A DNA stretch of 40,611 nucleotides, taken from positions 1 to 40,611 of the forward strand of contig NZ_JAABQC010000013.1 of the NCBI RefSeq assembly GCF_011391645.1, read 5' to 3'. The stretch's first letter is position 1. Each line of letters begins with the position of its first letter. The notes under the pieces were generated by a model. That model saw only the letters and a list, made by a program, of their open reading frames with translations. It was not told the DNA's origin and did not search any database. Of this stretch, positions 1 to 23,111 are shown piece by piece. This stretch comes from Rhodoferax sp. GTDB taxonomy: Bacteria > Pseudomonadota > Gammaproteobacteria > Burkholderiales > Burkholderiaceae_C. The translations under genes and the position numbers were made by a program.

Positions 1-524
1 AGTTGGTCAATGGCCCCAATATGCCGGTCGGTCACTTTTTGAATGTCGGATTCGCAGCGCTTTTGATCGTCTTCAGATGCCAGTTTGTCCTTGACCAGCT
101 TTTTGACGCCCTCGTTGGCATCACGGCGCAAATTGCGCACCGCGATCTTGGCCCCCTCGCCCTCATTGCGCACCAATTTGGTCAGTTCCTTGCGCCGCTC
201 TTCGGACATCGGCGGCATCGGCACCCGGATCAGGTCACCCATGGACGACGGGTTCAAACCAAGGTCGCTGTCGCGAATGGCTTTTTCAATTTTGGCGCCC
301 ATGCCCTTTTCCCAGGGCTGGACACTGACGGTGCGGGAATCCAGCAACGACACATTGGCCACTTGGCTGATTGGCACCATGGAACCGTAATAGTCCACAT
401 GCACCGTGTCGAGAATGGCAGGGTTGGCGCGTCCGGTGCGGATTTTGGTCAAGTTATGTTTGAAAGCCTCAATGGACTGGTCCATCTTGGTTTCTGCAAT
501 GTTTTTAATTTCGGCGACTGACAT
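1..524 (-). CDS. frr: Ribosome recycling factor (3' end cut by the window edge)
   Basis: Ribosome recycling factor splits post-termination ribosomes together with EF-G in the cytoplasm. The minus-strand reading frame starts at the ATG at 524-522 and begins [20 protein letters not shown]. It contains the family signatures [12 protein letters not shown] and a central [11 protein letters not shown] segment. About 174 residues are visible of a usual length near 185, so only the last dozen or so are missing beyond position 1. It is the last visible gene of the minus-strand cluster rpsB-tsf-pyrH-frr, 66 bp downstream of pyrH, and is probably co-transcribed with pyrH. Identification is by sequence recognition and order and is secure. 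Confidence 0.96.
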
Positions 525-590
525 GGGTTTTTCCTCACTCAGGGTTCAAAATAAAAAGACGTTTGGCGGTGGCCGTCAAACCTGGTTCGC

Positions 591-1313
591 TCAGGCGTAA
601 ACCAGGGTGCCCTCATCTTCCCCCATCACCACGCGCTTGAGCGCGCCGTGCTTGAAAATCGAGAACACTTTGACTGGCAATTTCTGATCGCGACACAAGG
701 CAAACGCGGTGGCATCCATGATGCCCAGATTTTTCGAGATGGCTTCGTCAAATGAAATCTTGCTATAGCGCGTGGCCGCAGGGTCTTTTTTGGGATCGGC
801 ACTGTACACACCATCCACCTTGGTGGCCTTGAGCACAATCTCGGCGCCAATTTCAGCGCCGCGCAAAGCGGCGGCGGTGTCGGTGGTAAAAAATGGGTTG
901 CCGGTACCGGCTGCAAAAATCACCACCTTGCCCTCTTCCAGATACTGCAGCGCTTTGGGCCGCACATACGGCTCCACCACCTGCTCAATGGCAATCGCCG
1001 ACATCACGCGCGCCGTCAAACCGGCCTTGTTCATGGTGTCACCCAGCGCCAATGAATTCATCACGGTCGCCAGCATCCCCATGTAATCGGCGGTGGCCCG
1101 GTCCATGCCGACCGAACCGCCCGCCACACCACGAAAAATGTTGCCACCCCCAATGACCACAGCCACCTGCACACCCAACTCGGTAACGCCCACAATCTCA
1201 TCAACCATGCGCACGATGGTGTCGCGGTTGATGCCGAACTGGTCGTCGCCCATCAGTGCCTCGCCCGACAATTTGAGCAAAATTCTCTTGTAAGCGGGTT
1301 TGACATCTGACAT
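591..1313 (-). CDS. pyrH: UMP kinase
   Basis: Cytoplasmic UMP kinase phosphorylates UMP to UDP in de novo pyrimidine synthesis. The 240-residue protein is of the hexameric bacterial type of the amino-acid-kinase fold. It has the N-terminal phosphate-binding KLSGEALMG (about residues 14-22), the glycine-rich [11 protein letters not shown] around residue 53, and [11 protein letters not shown] near the C terminus. A frame extension begins six codons upstream. The ATG at 1313-1311 is preferred because an AGGAG box lies about 7 nt before it, and because this start gives the usual family length. It lies between tsf and frr on the same strand, the conserved order in proteobacteria. Confidence 0.97.
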
Positions 1314-1362
1314 GGGTGACTCCTGGAACACTGTGAAAATTCAAAAAATGGCAACGGCCCGA

Positions 1363-2286
1363 TCAGGCAGCCTGTTGTGCGGCAGCCACCTGGGCTGCCA
1401 CTTCGGCGGCAAAGTCGTCCACCTTTTTCTCGATCCCCTCACCCACCACATAAAGCGTAAACGACTTCACCGTGGTGGCCGTGGCCTTGAGCATTTGCTC
1501 CACCGTTTGCTTGTCGTTCTTGACGAAAGCCTGGTTCAGCAAAGACACTTCCTTGAGGTATTTCTGCACCCCGCCCTCCACACGCTTGGCCACAATTTCT
1601 GCGGACTGCACTGGCTTGCCGGCCGCCGTGGCCACAGCGGCGTCTTCGGCCGCCTTGGCAGCGGCCACCGAACGCTCGCGCGCCACCAGTTCAGCCGGCA
1701 CATCGTCGCTCGACAAGGCCACGGGCTTCATCGCGGCAATGTGCATCGCCACATCCTTTGCCGCAACCTCGCTGCCCTCAAACTCCACCACCACACCGAT
1801 GCGGGTGCCGTGCAGATAGGATGCCAACTTGCTGCCGCTGGCAAAGCGTTTGAAACGGCGAAAACTCATGTTCTCGCCAATTTTGCCAATCAGGCCTTTG
1901 CGCACGTCCTCCAGGGTCGGGCCAAAGCCATCCTGCGTATAAGCCAGGGCGCCCAAGGCGGCCACGTCGATCGGGTTGTGCTTGGCGACCAGGGCGGCAG
2001 CCGCGTTGGCCAGGCCCAGGAAACTGTCGTTCTTGGTGACAAAGTCGGTCTCGCAGTTCACTTCGAGCAGGGCACCGATACCGGCGTCCGCGCTGTAAAC
2101 CACCACGCCCTCGGCAGTGATCCGTCCAGCCGCCTTGCCAGCCTTGCTGCCCAATTTGACGCGCAACAACTCCTCAGCCTTGACCATGTCGCCTTCAGCC
2201 TCGGTTAGGGCGCGCTTGCACTCCATCATGGGGGCATCGGTCTTGCCACGAAGTTCAGCCACCATGCTTGCGGTAATTACAGCCAT
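1363..2286 (-). CDS. tsf: Elongation factor Ts
   Basis: EF-Ts is the guanine nucleotide exchange factor that regenerates EF-Tu-GTP. The 307-residue protein begins [19 protein letters not shown], with the N-terminal UBA-like segment continuing into [14 protein letters not shown]. The core exchange motif [11 protein letters not shown] lies near residue 80. The ATG at 2286-2284 is preceded by an AGGAGA box at a good distance. It is downstream of rpsB, separated by an 89-bp gap that holds a strong terminator-like hairpin, so expression relative to S2 may be set by partial termination. It is about 20 residues longer than E. coli EF-Ts, normal for betaproteobacteria. Confidence 0.97.
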
Positions 2287-2324
2287 TTTGTTCTCCTGAA
2301 ATCAGTTCAGTTTATCAATTGAAA

Positions 2325-2352
2325 TTAAAAAAAGGGGGCAACGAAGCCCCCC
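2325..2352 (-). terminator. Intrinsic terminator/attenuator between rpsB and tsf
   Basis: Read on the minus strand, a G/C hairpin (GGGGGC at 2351-2346, loop, GCCCCC at 2339-2334) is followed directly by a run of seven T (2333-2327). This is a textbook Rho-independent terminator placed just after the rpsB stop and before tsf. Because tsf has no obvious promoter of its own in the remaining gap, partial read-through (attenuation) is the likeliest role; that is inference. Confidence 0.85.
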
Positions 2353-2375
2353 TTTGGATTGGGGTCGTCAATGGA

Positions 2376-3128
2376 TCAGGCAGCAGCCTCATTCACCTCG
2401 ACAAATTCGTCGGCACTGCTTTCAGCGACGGCCTTGACCACGTCATCCATCACGTTGGCGCGGCCTTCCAGAATCGCGTCGGCAATGCCGCGGGCATACA
2501 GGGTGACCGCTTTGGACGAGTCGTCGTTGCCCGGAATGATGTAGTCGATGCCTTCGGGCGAATGGTTGGTGTCGACCACGGCGATGAGCGGAATGCCCAG
2601 CTTGCGGGCTTCGGCGATGGCGATCTTGTGGTAACCCACGTCGATCACAAAAATGGCGTCAGGCAAGGTGGTCATGTCTTGGATACCACCAATGTCCTTT
2701 TCCAGCTTTTCGAGCTCACGGGCAAACATCAGTTGCTCCTTTTTGCTCATGCTGTCGAGGCCGGCTTCTTGCTGAATCTTCATGTCCTTGAGGCGCTTGA
2801 TCGAGGTCTTGACCGTCTTGAAATTGGTCAACATGCCGCCCAACCAACGTGAATCAACGTAGGGAACACCGGCGCGTTGCGCTTCGATGGCCACGGTTTC
2901 GCGCGCCTGGCGCTTGGTGCCCACCATCAGCACGGTGCCGCGCTTGGCAGAAATTTGACGCGCAAACTTGGCGGCTTCCTGGAACATCGGCAGCGATTTT
3001 TCCAGGTTGATGATGTGGATCTTGTTGCGATGGCCAAAAATGAAGGGGGCCATCTTGGGATTCCAGAAGCGGGTCTGGTGACCAAAGTGGACACCGGCTT
3101 CCAGCATTTCGCGCATGGTAATTGCCAT
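2376..3128 (-). CDS. rpsB: 30S ribosomal protein S2
   Basis: Ribosomal protein S2 is an essential small-subunit protein that helps bind S1. The 250-residue protein begins [20 protein letters not shown] and contains [20 protein letters not shown], both diagnostic of S2. The C terminus is acidic ([14 protein letters not shown]). A frame extension begins four codons upstream, but the ATG at 3128-3126 follows a GGAG box and gives the family's usual start. It is the first gene of the rpsB-tsf-pyrH-frr cluster and is divergent from the TPP-riboswitch-controlled receptor gene, with a 391-bp shared intergenic region. Confidence 0.97.
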
Positions 3129-3196
3129 AAAAAACTCCAAAGGTTAGGTCTGAAATCCAGTTCGTTTTGCTTGTTACAAGCAACACCTTGATGAAA

Positions 3197-3243
3197 CTGG
3201 TTTGCGGATTAACTCGGCGGCCCAGACTGGGTGAACAAACCAG
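3197..3243 (-). promoter_or_regulatory. Hairpin in the presumed rpsB 5' leader
   Basis: An 8-bp inverted repeat (CTGGTTTG at 3197-3204 with CAAACCAG at 3236-3243) encloses a second small hairpin (CCCA/TGGG near 3221-3231). It would be transcribed in the untranslated leader of rpsB if the promoter at 3260-3265 is correct. S2 autoregulates its own operon in other proteobacteria through leader RNA, so this could be such a site. The structure is seen; its role is inference. Confidence 0.35.
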
Positions 3244-3257
3244 GCTGCCAAGCCGGT

Positions 3258-3267
3258 CGAGTATAGC
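3258..3267 (-). promoter_or_regulatory. rpsB: Candidate extended -10 promoter for rpsB
   Basis: On the minus strand the sequence TGCTATACT contains a TATACT -10 hexamer (3265-3260) preceded by the TGn extension. No good -35 hexamer is visible upstream, which is tolerated by extended -10 promoters. Transcription would begin near 3253 and give a leader of about 125 nt before rpsB. Confidence 0.4.
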
Positions 3268-3364
3268 ACCGGGCCCGGGCTCGGCCTGCAGCCTGGCCCA
3301 ACCAAACCGTGTGGGGCTTCCTGTACACTTTGCGCATCAGGATCGGTGCACTCCGGTCCTGTAC

Positions 3365-3450
3365 ACGCTAGGGGTGCTGGTTTTCGCAAGAGGATCGGCT
3401 GAGATAACACCCTGGAACTTGATCAAGGTAATACTTGCGCAGGGAAGCGT
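3365..3450 (+). promoter_or_regulatory. TPP (thi-box) riboswitch
   Basis: All the conserved parts of a thiamin pyrophosphate aptamer are present in order. P1 is closed by ACGCT (3365-3369) with AGCGT (3446-3450). GGGGTGC lies at 3371-3377, the CTGAGA motif at 3399-3404 is followed by TAACACCC, and the pyrophosphate-sensing half reads GATCAAGGTAATACTTGCGC then AGGGAAGCG. The spacing matches E. coli thiC/thiM aptamers. It lies 69 bp before the receptor gene at 3520 on the same strand. In this class TPP binding normally lowers expression of the downstream gene, so the receptor should be made when TPP is scarce. Confidence 0.93.
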
Positions 3451-17830: not shown

Positions 17831-18409
17831 ATGACATCTTCAACCCCAGGGGCCCTGCCCTCATTTTTTCAACGCCTGCCAGTCGCCTTTGGCGCATTTT
17901 TCAGCGTGCTGGGAAATCCGGCATTTGCAGCCCGCGTGATCGCGCTGAGCCAACCCGCAGCAGAAGTTGCTGCTCCCCCTGCGGCGGCTGTCAAGCCTGC
18001 CCCGGTGCCAGCCCCAGTCATGAAAGAAGCCACGCCAGACGCCGCCCTGCAGTTGCTGGGCCTGCTGCAGCGCGACGCGCGCCTGATCGACTTCACCCAA
18101 GAAGACCTGACCCAGTACAGCGATGCCGACATTGGCGGCGTGGCCCGCGTGTTACACGAAGGCTGCCGCAAGGTGTTGCGTGAACACTTCACCATTGACC
18201 CCGTTCGCCCCGAGACCGAGGGCAGCCGCCTGACGCTGCCCGCCGGGTTTGACGCTCGTGGTGTGCGCCTGACCGGCAACGTGGTGGGCCAGGCGCCCTT
18301 CAACGGGACTCTCTGCCACCGCGGCTGGCGCGTCACCGAGACCCGCCTGCCCAAACTGGCCGACAGCCACGACGTGCGTGTACTGGCGCAGGCCGAGGTG
18401 GAACTGTGA
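17831..18409 (+). CDS. DUF2760 protein, first gene of an Hsp70-pair unit
   Basis: The 192-residue protein matches the DUF2760 family, for which I know no function. It has a short hydrophobic N-terminal part (about 10-45) and a Pro/Ala/Val-rich linker (about 46-65). A conserved C-terminal domain (about 70-192) contains LQLLGLLQRDARLIDFTQED and ends in NGTLCHRGWRVTETRLP, a compact beta-rich segment. The start follows AGGAA. Its stop overlaps the GTG start of the first Hsp70-like gene by 4 bp (GTGA), so production is probably coupled to it. The conserved company of two Hsp70-like proteins suggests it is a partner or regulator of them; that is inference. It lies 97 bp after mutL. Confidence 0.82.
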   Translation: MTSSTPGALPSFFQRLPVAFGAFFSVLGNPAFAARVIALSQPAAEVAAPPAAAVKPAPVPAPVMKEATPDAALQLLGLLQRDARLIDFTQEDLTQYSDADIGGVARVLHEGCRKVLREHFTIDPVRPETEGSRLTLPAGFDARGVRLTGNVVGQAPFNGTLCHRGWRVTETRLPKLADSHDVRVLAQAEVEL

Positions 18410-20247
18410 GCACCCCGCGTTTTGCCATTGGCATCGACCTGGGCACCACCCACTGCGCGCTGGCCTACGTGGACATCAGTGCCAGCGACGGCGAAGCCAC
18501 CAGTTATGGCGTGCTTGACATTCCCCAGCTGACCGGCCCCGGCAGTGTCGACAACCTGGCCTTGCTGCCCTCATTCTTGTACCTGCCGCATGCGGATGAG
18601 TTGGCCGCAGGCGACCTGACCCTGCCCTGGTCTGACACCCAGGACTTTGCCGTGGGTGAGTTCGCCCGCGCACGCGGCGCGCTGACCCCCATCCGTCTGG
18701 TGTCTAGTGCCAAAAGCTGGCTCTGCCACCCGGGCGTGGACCGGCGCGCCGCCATCCTGCCCTTTGACGCACCGCCCGAGGTGGCCCGCGTGTCGCCGCT
18801 GGAAGCATCCACCCGCTACCTGAACCACCTGCGTCAGGCCTGGGACCAGGCCCACCCGGAAGCGCCGTTCGTGGAGCAGGATGTCACGGTAACCATACCC
18901 GCGTCCTTTGACCCCGCCGCGCGTGAGCTCACGGCTGAGGCCGCCCGCGCTGCCGGGTACATCCACCTGACCCTGCTGGAAGAACCGCAGGCCGCGCTTT
19001 ACAACTGGATTCAGGGCAGTGCGGGGCGCTGGCGCAAAGACGTCAAACCCGGCGACATCATTCTGGTGGTGGACGTAGGCGGCGGCACCAGTGACTTCTC
19101 GCTGATCGCCGTGCTGGAGCGCGAAGGCCAGCTGGAGTTGCACCGCGTCGCTGTGGGCGACCATATCCTGCTCGGTGGCGACAACATGGACCTCACCCTG
19201 GCGCATGTGGTGGCCCGCAAACTGGCCACTGAGGGCAAGACGCTTGATGGCTGGCAAATGCGCGCCCTCACCTATGCCTGCCGCGTGGCCAAGGAGGCGC
19301 TGCTGAGCGACGCCACCCTGACCACCCAAGCCATCGTGGTGCCCAGCCGTGGCTCCAAGCTGATCGGTGGCGCCATTCGCACCGAACTCACCCAGGAAGA
19401 GGTGCGCGTCACCATCCTGGAAGGTTTTTTCCCGCAGGTTGAAGCCATGGCACGCCCGGCCATCCGCACCCGCAGCGGCCTGACACAACTTGGCCTGCCC
19501 TACGCGCAAGACGCGGGTGTGACACGCCACCTGGCTGCCCTGCTGGGTCGCCAAGCCGGCGCCACCACCGAGTTGGCAGGTTTTGCGGGCAAGTTTGACG
19601 CCGAGGCCAGCTTTTTGCATCCCACGGCGGTGCTGTTCAACGGCGGCGTTTTCAAGTCTGAGGCACTGATCGAGCGCACCCTGGGCACACTCAACAGCTG
19701 GCTGGTGGCGGAAAACGCCGAGCCGGCCCGCATGCTGGCCGGGGCCGATATGGACCTGGCGGTGGCCCGCGGTGCCGCCTACTACGGCTATGTGCGCCGC
19801 GGCCAGGGTGTGCGCATTCGCGGCGGCACGGCGCGCGCCTATTACGTCGGGGTCGAATCCTCCATGCCCGCCATTCCCGGCATGGAGCCGCCCCTGCAAG
19901 CGCTGTGCGTGGCGCCCTTTGGCATGGAAGAGGGCACCGAGGCCAACCTGCAGGCACGTGAGTTTGGCCTGTGGGTGGGCGAGCCGGTGGTGTTACGTTT
20001 TTATGGCTCATCGGTGCGCCGCCAGGACCTGCTTGGCACCCTGCTCGACTTCTGGCAACCCGACGAACTGCAGGCCTTGGGCGACATCCGGGCCACGCTA
20101 CCCACAGAGGGCCGCCAGGTCGGGGAGTTGGTGCAAGTCACGCTGCGCGCCACCGCCACCGACACCGGCACACTCGAACTCACCGCGGTGGCCACCCAGG
20201 GCGGTGAGCGCTGGAAGGTGGAATTTGACGTGCGCAGCAGCAGCTGA
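18406..20247 (+). CDS. Hsp70-family protein A (short substrate domain, no lid)
   Basis: This is a divergent Hsp70-like ATPase of 613 residues. The nucleotide-binding domain (about 1-465) keeps the key motifs: phosphate-1 GIDLGTTHCALAY (from residue 9), the catalytic-lysine region SSAKSWLCHPGVDR, LLEEPQAALYNW (about 189, equivalent to the DnaK INEPTAAAL segment), phosphate-2 VDVGGGTSDFSL (about 220), LGGDNMDLTLAH and the adenosine motif LFNGGVF (about 410). After it comes only about 140 residues resembling a beta-type substrate domain; the helical lid and any EEVD-like tail are missing. No DnaJ or GrpE gene is near. It overlaps DUF2760 by 4 bp and is followed 11 bp later by a second, different Hsp70-like gene. 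Substrate unknown. Confidence 0.88.
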   Translation: MSTPRFAIGIDLGTTHCALAYVDISASDGEATSYGVLDIPQLTGPGSVDNLALLPSFLYLPHADELAAGDLTLPWSDTQDFAVGEFARARGALTPIRLVSSAKSWLCHPGVDRRAAILPFDAPPEVARVSPLEASTRYLNHLRQAWDQAHPEAPFVEQDVTVTIPASFDPAARELTAEAARAAGYIHLTLLEEPQAALYNWIQGSAGRWRKDVKPGDIILVVDVGGGTSDFSLIAVLEREGQLELHRVAVGDHILLGGDNMDLTLAHVVARKLATEGKTLDGWQMRALTYACRVAKEALLSDATLTTQAIVVPSRGSKLIGGAIRTELTQEEVRVTILEGFFPQVEAMARPAIRTRSGLTQLGLPYAQDAGVTRHLAALLGRQAGATTELAGFAGKFDAEASFLHPTAVLFNGGVFKSEALIERTLGTLNSWLVAENAEPARMLAGADMDLAVARGAAYYGYVRRGQGVRIRGGTARAYYVGVESSMPAIPGMEPPLQALCVAPFGMEEGTEANLQAREFGLWVGEPVVLRFYGSSVRRQDLLGTLLDFWQPDELQALGDIRATLPTEGRQVGELVQVTLRATATDTGTLELTAVATQGGERWKVEFDVRSSS

Positions 20248-20258
20248 CCAAGGGCCGG

Positions 20259-23111
20259 ATGCGCCAGTACATGGTCGGCATTGACCTGGGCACCACCCAC
20301 ACGGTGGTCGCTTTTGCACGGCTGGGTTCAGCCAAGGCACGGGCCAAGGCCACTGCACAACCCAGCATTGAGTTGCTGCAGATCGAGCAATTGGTTGGCG
20401 CCGGCCAGGTGGCCGGATTGCCGCTGCTGCCCTCGGTGCGTTACCACGCCGGGGCCGATGAACTCGCCAGCGGCGCGTGGCAATTACCCTGGGCCACCGG
20501 TGCCGACCCGCAGGCGCCGGTGGTGATCGGCCAGTGGGCGCGCACCCTGGGCGCGCAGGTGCCGGGTCGGTTGGTGACCAGCGCCAAGAGTTGGCTGTCA
20601 CACCCCGCAGTGGACCGCCTGGCCCCCATCCTGCCGTGGGGCGCACCCGCCGAGGTGCCCAAAGTCTCGCCAGTGGAGGCCAGCGCCAGCTACCTGGCGC
20701 ATGTGCGCGATGCCTGGAACATACAGCACCCAAAGCACCCGCTGGCAGAGCAAGACCTGGTGCTGACCGTGCCGGCGTCCTTCGACGAGGCGGCGCGCGC
20801 ACTCACCCTGAGCGCCGCGCGCCAGGCCGGACTGCCACAGTTGCGGCTGCTTGAAGAACCACAAGCCGTGTTTTATGACTGGCTTTGGCGCCACCGCGGC
20901 AGCCTTAAGGAAGAGTTGGCGCAATCGCGCCTGGTGCTGGTGTGTGACGTGGGCGGCGGCACCACCGACCTGAGCCTGTTTGAAGTGGCGTGGCAAGACG
21001 AGTTGCCGCGGCTAACCCGCATCGGCGTCGGCCAGCACCTGATGTTGGGCGGCGACAACATGGACCTGGCGCTGGCGCACTTGGTGGAATCCCGCCTGGG
21101 CAGCACGCCGGACGCATCGGCCCCCCGCTTGTCAGCCAGTCAGTTGGCGCAACTGGTCGAGCGATGCCGCCATGCCAAGGAGCAGCTGCTGGCAGCCGAT
21201 GCTCCGACCCAGGTGCAGGTCACGCTGCTGGGCAGCGGTGCGCGCCTGATTGGCGGCAGCCGCTCGACCGCTTTGACACAAGAAGACGTGGCACAACTGA
21301 TTGTTGAGGGATTTTTCCCGCAAGTCGAGGCCAGCGCGCAAGCCACCCAGTCCCGGGGTGGTCTGGTGGCGTTTGGCCTGCCGTATGCCCGCGACGCCGC
21401 CATCACGCGCCACCTGGCCGACTTCTTGCGCCAGCATGCCCATGCCCGGCCCGACACCCTGCTGCTCAACGGCGGCGTGTTTCGCGCCGAGCCATTGGTA
21501 AAACGCTTGCAGCAGACTCTGGCCGACTGGCTCGGTGCGCCGCTGCGGCTGCTGCACAACGACAACCCCGACATCGCCGTGGCGCGCGGTGCCGTCGCTT
21601 ATGCGCTGGCGCAACAGGGGCTGGCACCGGTGATTGGCGGCGGCTCGGCGCGCAGCTACTTTTTGGTGCTTGAAGACACCAGCGGCCCGGGTCGCACCCC
21701 ACGTGGCATGTGCCTGCTGCCACGCGGCACCGAACCGGGGCAGGAGGTGCGCCTGTGCGGCCGCACGTTTGCCCTGCGCCTGGGGCAACCCGTGCGGTTT
21801 CATCTGGTCACATCCACCGCAGATTTAAGGGAAAAAGTACAGCCGCAAGCCGGTGATCTGGTCGAACTGGATGACACGCACTTTGTGCCCCTGCCACCCA
21901 TCGTGGTGGTGCTGCAAGCGGCTGCGGACGCTGGCAACACCACCACGGTCGGCGCGACCTCGCCCAAAAGCAAACAGGAAACGCCGGTGCACCTGGTGGC
22001 CTCACTCACCGAGGTGGGCACACTGGAGATGCACTGCGTCAGCCTGACAGACGCGCAGCAGCGCTGGCGGTTGGAATTTGACTTGCGCCATGTCGACACG
22101 GCCGCAAGCACAGACCCATCGGATCGATCAACAACGGCACGGCTGGCACAAGCCATTCAACACATCGACCGCATCTTTGGCCCCGGCACCCAACCACTGG
22201 CGGCCAAGGAAGTCAAACAACTGCGTGCCCAGCTTGAGCAAACCCTGGGTGCGCGCGAGCAATGGGCCACGCCCGACTTGCGCCAGCTGTATGACGCCCT
22301 GTGGGCGCGCCAGCGTGCACGGCGCCGTTCGGTGGAACACGAGCGCGTGTGGCTGAATCTGGCCGGCTACTGCCTGCGCCCCGGCCTGGGCGATACGCTG
22401 GACGGCTGGCGGGTTGAGCAACTTTGGACGCAATACCCCGGCGGTGTGCAGAACGCCCGCGACAGACAGGTGTGTGCCGAGTGGTGGACGCTGTGGCGCC
22501 GCGTGGCCGGTGGCCTGGCGGCGCCCGAGCAACTTGGCCTGCTGGATGCCTTTGCCTACAACCTGCAGCGCAATGAACACGGCGTGACGCCGGACACCAC
22601 ACCGCCCGTCAAAGGCAGCGACGACGACATGCTGCGTCTGGGTGCGGCGCTGGAGCGCATTCCGGCAAATTACAAGGCCGAGATTGGCGACTGGCTTCTC
22701 AAACGCCTGCACAAATCACTGGCCAAGCCGCGCCCCGATGCCAGCGCGGGCAGCGATGCCCTGCACCTATGGGCCCTGGGCCGCATCGGTGCGCGCCAAC
22801 CGTTTTACGGCAGCCCGCACGAGGTGGTGGCCATCGGCGTTGCCACCGGTTGGCTGGACGCTTTGCTTTTGCTGGACTGGAAAAAGCTGGAGCCCGCCGC
22901 CTTTGCCGCCACCCACCTGGCCCGCGTGACTGACGACCGGGCGCGCGACCTCGAGCCAGCGTTGCGCGCGCAGATCGCCACACGGCTCACTGCCATTCAT
23001 GCGCCGGTCGCCTGGGTCGAGATGGTTCGCCAGCGGGTGGAACTTGACGTGGCCACCGAGCGCCGCATGCTGGGTGAATCGCTGCCGCCGGGCTTGAAGT
23101 TGATTGGGTAA
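20259..23111 (+). CDS. Hsp70-family protein B with C-terminal DUF3731 region
   Basis: This is a second divergent Hsp70-like ATPase, 950 residues, a paralogue of the upstream protein. The ATPase domain shows MVGIDLGTTHTVVAF, TSAKSWLSHPAVDR, LLEEPQAVFYDW, CDVGGGTTDLSLF (about residue 227), LGGDNMDLALAH and LLLNGGVFRAE (about 400). A beta-type segment follows to about residue 615. The last roughly 330 residues form a mostly helical region matching DUF3731 (for example HIDRIFGPGTQPLAAKEV and WLNLAGYCLRPGLGD), not found in DnaK. The ATP-handling residues look intact. An AAGGG ribosome site lies before the ATG. It is in one operon with DUF2760 and Hsp70 A, and the last codons meet the start of the MATE gene. 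Function unknown. Confidence 0.88.
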   Translation: MRQYMVGIDLGTTHTVVAFARLGSAKARAKATAQPSIELLQIEQLVGAGQVAGLPLLPSVRYHAGADELASGAWQLPWATGADPQAPVVIGQWARTLGAQVPGRLVTSAKSWLSHPAVDRLAPILPWGAPAEVPKVSPVEASASYLAHVRDAWNIQHPKHPLAEQDLVLTVPASFDEAARALTLSAARQAGLPQLRLLEEPQAVFYDWLWRHRGSLKEELAQSRLVLVCDVGGGTTDLSLFEVAWQDELPRLTRIGVGQHLMLGGDNMDLALAHLVESRLGSTPDASAPRLSASQLAQLVERCRHAKEQLLAADAPTQVQVTLLGSGARLIGGSRSTALTQEDVAQLIVEGFFPQVEASAQATQSRGGLVAFGLPYARDAAITRHLADFLRQHAHARPDTLLLNGGVFRAEPLVKRLQQTLADWLGAPLRLLHNDNPDIAVARGAVAYALAQQGLAPVIGGGSARSYFLVLEDTSGPGRTPRGMCLLPRGTEPGQEVRLCGRTFALRLGQPVRFHLVTSTADLREKVQPQAGDLVELDDTHFVPLPPIVVVLQAAADAGNTTTVGATSPKSKQETPVHLVASLTEVGTLEMHCVSLTDAQQRWRLEFDLRHVDTAASTDPSDRSTTARLAQAIQHIDRIFGPGTQPLAAKEVKQLRAQLEQTLGAREQWATPDLRQLYDALWARQRARRRSVEHERVWLNLAGYCLRPGLGDTLDGWRVEQLWTQYPGGVQNARDRQVCAEWWTLWRRVAGGLAAPEQLGLLDAFAYNLQRNEHGVTPDTTPPVKGSDDDMLRLGAALERIPANYKAEIGDWLLKRLHKSLAKPRPDASAGSDALHLWALGRIGARQPFYGSPHEVVAIGVATGWLDALLLLDWKKLEPAAFAATHLARVTDDRARDLEPALRAQIATRLTAIHAPVAWVEMVRQRVELDVATERRMLGESLPPGLKLIG

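Follow-up and report, generated by a model that had tools for sequence, protein, structure and literature searches.

The stretch of DNA analysed here (the window) is a contig of 40,611 nucleotides from Rhodoferax sp. (assembly GCF_011391645.1, contig NZ_JAABQC010000013.1), in which three closely spaced genes on the forward strand encode a DUF2760 protein and two unlike Hsp70 relatives, termed below HspA and HspB. The DUF2760 protein (192 aa, 17831..18409; PF10816 with E=1.1e-53 and 180.8 bits against a gathering threshold of 25) begins at the ATG at 17831, in a frame that is open from 17510. HspA (613 aa, 18406..20247) begins at a GTG, whose overlap with the stop codon of DUF2760 spans 4 bases (18406..18409), an arrangement that may couple the translation of the two genes, and HspB (950 aa, 20259..23111) begins at an ATG after an 11-base gap. 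By its PF00012 match, motifs and alignment, HspA consists of a nucleotide-binding domain (NBD) and a beta substrate-binding domain; its end at residue 613 coincides with the end of the beta domain in the alignment, and the helical lid of Hsp70 is absent. HspB, also matched by PF00012, has the same two domains followed by an all-helical DUF3731 extension in place of the lid (22329..23102; PF12531 with E=1.0e-89 and 296.2 bits against a gathering threshold of 25). Its AlphaFold2 (AF2) model (mean predicted local distance difference test score, pLDDT, 80.6; predicted template modelling score, pTM, 0.64) matches the structures of DnaK and BiP over residues 1-610 and has helices at 621-938.

This layout agrees with the original prediction, which had also stated that no DnaJ or GrpE gene lies nearby. 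Profile searches found no DnaJ, J-domain or GrpE match on the 40.6-kb contig of the window (C39), and no J-domain match in the three proteins. Elsewhere in the genome (2.7 Mb, 167 contigs) a DnaK-like Hsp70 with a GrpE and a DnaJ match is located on contig C117, and an HscA-like Hsp70 on contig C101, with a sub-threshold DnaJ-type match beside it. By these profile scores the proteins of the window are plain members of the Pfam families PF10816 (DUF2760) and PF12531 (DUF3731, "DNA-K related protein"), whose descriptions state no function.

Both Hsp70 relatives retain the NBD motifs of the superfamily (phosphate-1, Lys70, Glu171 and phosphate-2), and the earlier expectation that their ATPase motifs are intact was upheld in their homologues: phosphate-1, the Lys70-type residue and phosphate-2 are present in 75/75 HspA sequences and in 52, 51 and 52, respectively, of the 52 HspB sequences. 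On the other hand, the linker of DnaK, of the VLLLD type, was found in none of the 75 HspA and none of the 52 HspB sequences. The HPD motif of DnaJ touches R167 and the linker residue L391 of DnaK (PMC8215388); the position of R167 is occupied by Arg in 0/75 HspA and 46/52 HspB. Both proteins miss the NCBIfam cut-off for DnaK and HscA (620), the best model giving 77.3 bits for HspA and 83 bits for HspB, and in a tree of HspA, HspB, DnaK and HscA, which contains no HscC sequence, HspA and HspB group together, separated from the DnaK and HscA of the same genome with support of 100/100. DUF3731 has no sequence match in PDB better than E 0.6, and the Hsp110 NBD (6gfa) is one among many near-equal structure matches.

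The DUF2760 protein is made up of a hydrophobic N-terminal helix, a Pro/Ala linker and a conserved alpha+beta C-terminal domain (AF2 mean pLDDT 80.7, pTM 0.52). The predicted hydrophobic or amphipathic helix (residues 11-28, 17861..17914; residues 12-28 in the model), which we propose as a membrane contact, has a hydrophobic moment of 0.363, a value reached by 87 of 2000 shuffled sequences. Among the homologues displayed, those of Methylococcales, f34 and Bradyrhizobium have strongly hydrophobic N-terminal segments, two such stretches being visible in f34; a Vibrio-like genus has one clear transmembrane-like segment, and Burkholderiales a weaker SFFxRIxLAxGxFF helix. A hydrophobic N-terminus of such changing make-up suggests membrane attachment, which for the lineage of the window is inferred, and from these sequence features DUF2760 is probably a membrane-linked adaptor rather than a soluble partner. 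At the other end of the protein, the tail AQAEVEL (18386..18406) is near-invariant. Three of the 26 invariant columns in 58 sequences lie in the C-terminal tail, and the pattern A[EQ][VI]E[LVI](K) fits 100 of 101 homologues, the remaining one ending in AEVELR. Since the tail is constrained in sequence and yet predicted to be disordered (residues 187-192 have pLDDT below 50 in the monomer model), it may be a peptide that docks on a partner, for which HspA is the obvious candidate.

The distribution of the three genes was followed in searches that covered the phylum of the window, Pseudomonadota as judged by its named relatives, with a phylum sample of 249 genomes and a family sample of 200 that overlap (G000, G082, G207 and G225 are among the shared genomes). 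In the phylum sample DUF2760 is present in 19 genomes, the HspA profile, for which the five best candidates were scored per genome, in the same 19, and DUF3731 in 18 of these. In the genome without DUF3731 (G026) HspA begins at base 82 of its contig, so that HspB would fall off the contig end; each of the other 18 has two HspA-profile matches, one HspA and one HspB. The corresponding counts above cut-off in the family sample are 25 for DUF2760, 26 for the HspA profile and 26 for DUF3731. The 26th genome (G622) has no DUF2760 and an HspA truncated by the contig end at base 3, and one further genome (G671) has a single weak DUF3731 match below cut-off with neither DUF2760 nor HspA. As contig ends explain G026 and G622, no genome in either sample, G671 aside, holds a partial set, and separate occurrence of the families, the outcome set beforehand as a refutation, was not seen in the two samples. 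The hypergeometric probability of the co-occurrence, 7e-29, overstates it, the genomes being related to one another; counted in genera, DUF2760 occurs in 7 of 132 (phylum sample) and 20 of 141 (family sample).

In the 18 genomes that were mapped, the window excluded, DUF2760 and HspA are adjacent and in the same order without exception, and HspB lies downstream of HspA in 16, with two other genes intervening in one of them (G082). In G053 HspB is on a separate contig from DUF2760-HspA, its sequence being divided between two overlapping frames (L059:12993-15783), and in the Comamonas genomes G249 and G257 it apparently lies ~18-25 kb downstream, provided that C1 of these genomes corresponds to the contig named. 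The unit is no rarity: a genome scan found at least 578 stretches, among at least 588, that encode a DUF2760 relative, some of them possibly two stretches of one gene, their sources including culturable environmental bacteria such as Janthinobacterium and Massilia. The loci named here are the best 80 kept from the scan and therefore lean to close relatives, the closest named DUF2760 among them being that of a Rhodoferax metagenome-assembled genome (MAG; 83% identity). DUF2760 adjoins HspA in all 80, and HspB is found within the fetched stretch in 61. HspA is readable in 75, four being cut by a contig end and one lying in two frames, and the 4-base overlap with DUF2760 is present in 70 of the 75. 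Of the 52 readable HspA-HspB pairs, 43 are separated by no more than 76 bases and the other nine by 253-3442. A whole-genome search for DUF3731 in 16 genomes found it in 14; 13 of the 16 have no HspB at the locus, and 11 of these 13 carry it elsewhere. On plasmids, DUF2760 and HspA occur in the same 11 of 72,556 records, from Burkholderia, Caballeronia, Bradyrhizobium, a Comamonadaceae and Thiodictyon. Overall, the data strongly support one real, conserved, accessory unit of three genes, with DUF2760-HspA as its tight core and HspB more loosely attached, sometimes split off by inserted genes or located elsewhere.

The inserted genes vary by locus among those shown. At L045:9287-11833 a porin-like gene (identified by eye, on the opposite strand) and a sodium/calcium exchanger gene stand between HspA and HspB; genes of similar porin-like appearance occupy the same interval in L072 and follow HspA in L091. 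Inspection by eye of eight loci where HspB stands away from DUF2760-HspA (L159-L166) revealed no common theme beyond close relatives. Judging by its neighbours, L132 ("uncultured bacterium"), whose genome was not included in the whole-genome DUF3731 search, may lie outside the phylum of the window.

The reading that we prefer, and to which we attach about equal measures of belief and doubt, is that DUF2760, HspA and HspB form a membrane-tethered, J-protein-independent accessory chaperone of three parts with two Hsp70s. DUF2760 would be anchored to the cytoplasmic face of the inner membrane through its hydrophobic N-terminus. The lidless HspA, made beside it by coupled translation, would be held by the conserved domain and the A-E-V-E-L tail, and HspB, its paralogue with DUF3731 replacing the lid, would be the partner ATPase of the anchored complex, acting on membrane-proximal clients. 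The standard grip of a J-protein would be used by neither Hsp70, DUF2760 and the paralogue taking the places of J-protein and exchange factor. In this scheme the site at the membrane, the coupling of translation, the physical complex, which the original prediction framed as a heteromeric or sequential machine, the division of labour, the independence from J-proteins and the type of client are all inferred. A bolder formulation, possible but held more tentatively, is that a tethered DUF2760 with a docking tail runs a hetero-pair, one Hsp70 lidless and the other lidded by DUF3731, as a J-independent machine, in which case bacteria would have a fourth type of Hsp70 system.

Several observations weigh against this proposal. 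The Kyte-Doolittle maximum of the DUF2760 of the window, 1.47, is below the usual transmembrane threshold of 1.6; in 101 homologues the 19-residue maximum reaches 1.6 in just 22, is 1.0-1.6 in 62 and falls below 1.0 in 17, with 0.80 and 0.91 in two f20 loci. The model of DUF2760, with its pTM of 0.52, found no fold match, which leaves the adaptor role without a structural precedent. The Arg kept at the R167 position in most HspB sequences makes some contact with a J-protein possible there, and a missing linker motif may alternatively be the sign of an Hsp70 cycle that no longer operates. The distance matrices agree (rho 0.80-0.86, permutation maximum 0.33), which counts in favour of the proposal, yet this agreement, uncorrected for species, is expected from shared descent alone. 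Finally, the two remaining genomes of the 13 without HspB at the locus, both draft MAGs, show none anywhere, and on the Thiodictyon plasmid that carries DUF2760-HspA no place for a second Hsp70 was found at E 1e-20.

Comparison with known systems shows both likeness and difference. HspA and HspB share with DnaK-type Hsp70s the NBD fold, the phosphate motifs, the positions of the catalytic Lys and Glu, and the beta substrate-binding domain. They differ in the missing VLLLD-type linker, in the lid, which is absent from HspA and replaced by DUF3731 in HspB, in the replacement of the J-domain contact Arg in HspA, and in the lack of a DnaJ or GrpE match on the contig. HscC, with the membrane-anchored J-proteins DjlB and DjlC, is a specialised bacterial Hsp70 for which a role at the plasma membrane, mediated by anchored partners, has likewise been proposed (PMC8215388). 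However, the partner here is DUF2760 and no J-protein, there are two Hsp70s instead of one, and the lid is missing or replaced. In the yeast ribosome-associated complex (RAC) an atypical Hsp70, Ssz1, is held by an anchoring partner, Zuotin, and a second, working Hsp70, Ssb, is added; in contrast, DUF2760 has no J-domain match, the system is bacterial, it is proposed to sit at the membrane and not at the ribosome, and HspA retains its ATP motifs. Hsp110 and Hsp70 likewise form a pair of dissimilar Hsp70 relatives, of which one has the larger helical part at its C-terminus, but DUF3731 has no close sequence match in PDB, and in the tree the two Hsp70 relatives of the window cluster with each other and not with DnaK or HscA.

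An alternative, in our view unlikely, is that the set is a regulatory or scaffold unit whose Hsp70 relatives are ATP switches that report surface or density state at the membrane and steer the choice between biofilm and free life. HapR was reported to activate the promoter of VC1375 of Vibrio cholerae both in vitro and in vivo (PMC10328515), and VC1374, in the operon VC1373-1375, is given among genes repressed in biofilm (PMC9201469). An exact copy of the 22-base HapR site described for the interval between VC1375 and VC1376 (PMC10328515) is present in one of 227 g26 genomes. It precedes DUF2760 by ~300 bases, with a divergent gene of 537 aa 15 bases away, and this genome also carries the set, DUF2760 being followed by HspA and then by HspB up to the end of the fetched stretch. 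The context of the site points to g26 being Vibrio and makes VC1375, VC1374 and VC1373 very likely the V. cholerae copy of the set. The same explanation is favoured by a CHASE-GGDEF protein as divergent neighbour in two other loci of this Vibrio-like genus (L043 and L046), and by StkA of Myxococcus, an Hsp70-like negative regulator of exopolysaccharide, for which an ATP switch rather than a protein folder was one of the options raised (PMC4319316). The missing linker, which in DnaK couples ATP to substrate, would fit a switch as well. However, the biofilm and quorum evidence is confined to Vibrio, a third locus of the genus (L051) has a different divergent neighbour, elsewhere the flanks are not widely shared, and the ATP motifs and beta-domain region are retained in the aligned lineages.

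Other expression clues are scattered. VC1374 stands at log2 -2.68 in one published table (PMC5636140) and VC1373 at -1.04 in another (PMC5816637); the "VC1374" of PMC9608740 is a strain name and not the gene. A "DnaK-related protein" is carbonylated after ultraviolet B in Photobacterium (PMC3706606), and one in Thiodictyon is more abundant in the dark (PMC6413534); either may correspond to HspA or HspB. Heat-shock regulation was considered and is unsupported overall, since sigma-32-like sites upstream of DUF2760 were counted in 5 of 98 loci, within the range of shuffled sequences (n=20, mean 3.25, maximum 6); four of these belong to loci of the Vibrio-like genus, where the five upstream regions give a poor alignment. 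Between 17400 and 23500 of the window no sigma-70-like promoter was found, and terminator-like sites number 5 against 4.6 expected. In one genome of the Vibrio-like genus a TerB-domain gene (L043:4667-5113) precedes DUF2760 at a distance of a few genes.

A second alternative borrows from yeast, where Zuotin-Ssz1 activates Ssb. DUF2760-HspA would similarly be a stable co-chaperone pair that merely activates HspB, and HspA need not cycle. The tight coupling of DUF2760 to HspA and the looser position of HspB are as this model would have them, and HspA has neither lid nor R167-type Arg, whereas most HspB sequences retain the Arg. It seems improbable to us, however, as PF10816 is the sole Pfam match of DUF2760, which lacks one to the J-domain, and the ATP motifs, kept in 75/75 HspA sequences, are not needed by a purely structural Hsp70.

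The neighbourhoods bear on the remaining alternative, a mobile fitness or defence cassette that moves horizontally and is used against phage or plasmid-related stress. The set has a patchy distribution (25 of the 200 family genomes have DUF2760, and the sole same-genus genome listed lacks it) and is plasmid-borne in the 11 records, one copy of DUF2760-HspA on a Thiodictyon plasmid lies near genes annotated as anti-phage, and in L119 a helicase and a DprA-family gene stand between HspA and HspB. Against this, none of the six pattern matches in a scan of viral contigs encodes a relative, inspection of the flank clusters by eye on sequence starts showed no recurring defence gene, and PADLOC gave nothing for DUF2760 and one weak match per Hsp70 (PDC-M61B, E ~1e-7), which falls on the NBD and is taken as general Hsp70 similarity; we regard a cassette of this kind as very improbable. 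Two unnamed PHROGs families also match the NBD. The widest flank cluster spans 12 of 80 loci, and the neighbour scan is weak since many clusters look like spurious or antisense open reading frames in high-GC DNA. The genes in L119 (L119:12403-15787, a Competibacter MAG) are a DEAD-box helicase with a weak RecQ zinc-binding and phosphoribosyltransferase match and the DprA-family gene. The linear Thiodictyon plasmid (L157:1-11219) has DUF3780, DUF1156 and phospholipase D-like genes near DUF2760-HspA, HspB not being among the features listed. In Bradyrhizobium barranii (L156:1-17290) a conjugative plasmid carries the whole set, flanked by trb transfer genes on one side and a topoisomerase on the other.

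A membrane-tethered, J-independent pair of Hsp70s with DUF2760 is the reading we retain. The open-licence literature searched yielded no function for the set and no paper using the names DUF2760 or DUF3731, and within that literature the claim that no function has been assigned is borne out; in the sources examined the members are named just as DUFs or Hsp70 relatives. The unit is also tied to the quorum-sensing and biofilm data of Vibrio, where it is given by locus tag. Few protein machines have been studied as closely as Hsp70, of which a 2021 review recognises three prokaryotic types, DnaK, HscA and HscC, all working with J-proteins (PMC8215388). An all-or-none Hsp70 pair without the linker motif, accompanied by a constant partner that is not a J-protein, raises the question of whether Hsp70 can run in another way; if the proposal of a fourth type is true, this unit would stand beside DnaK, HscA and HscC.

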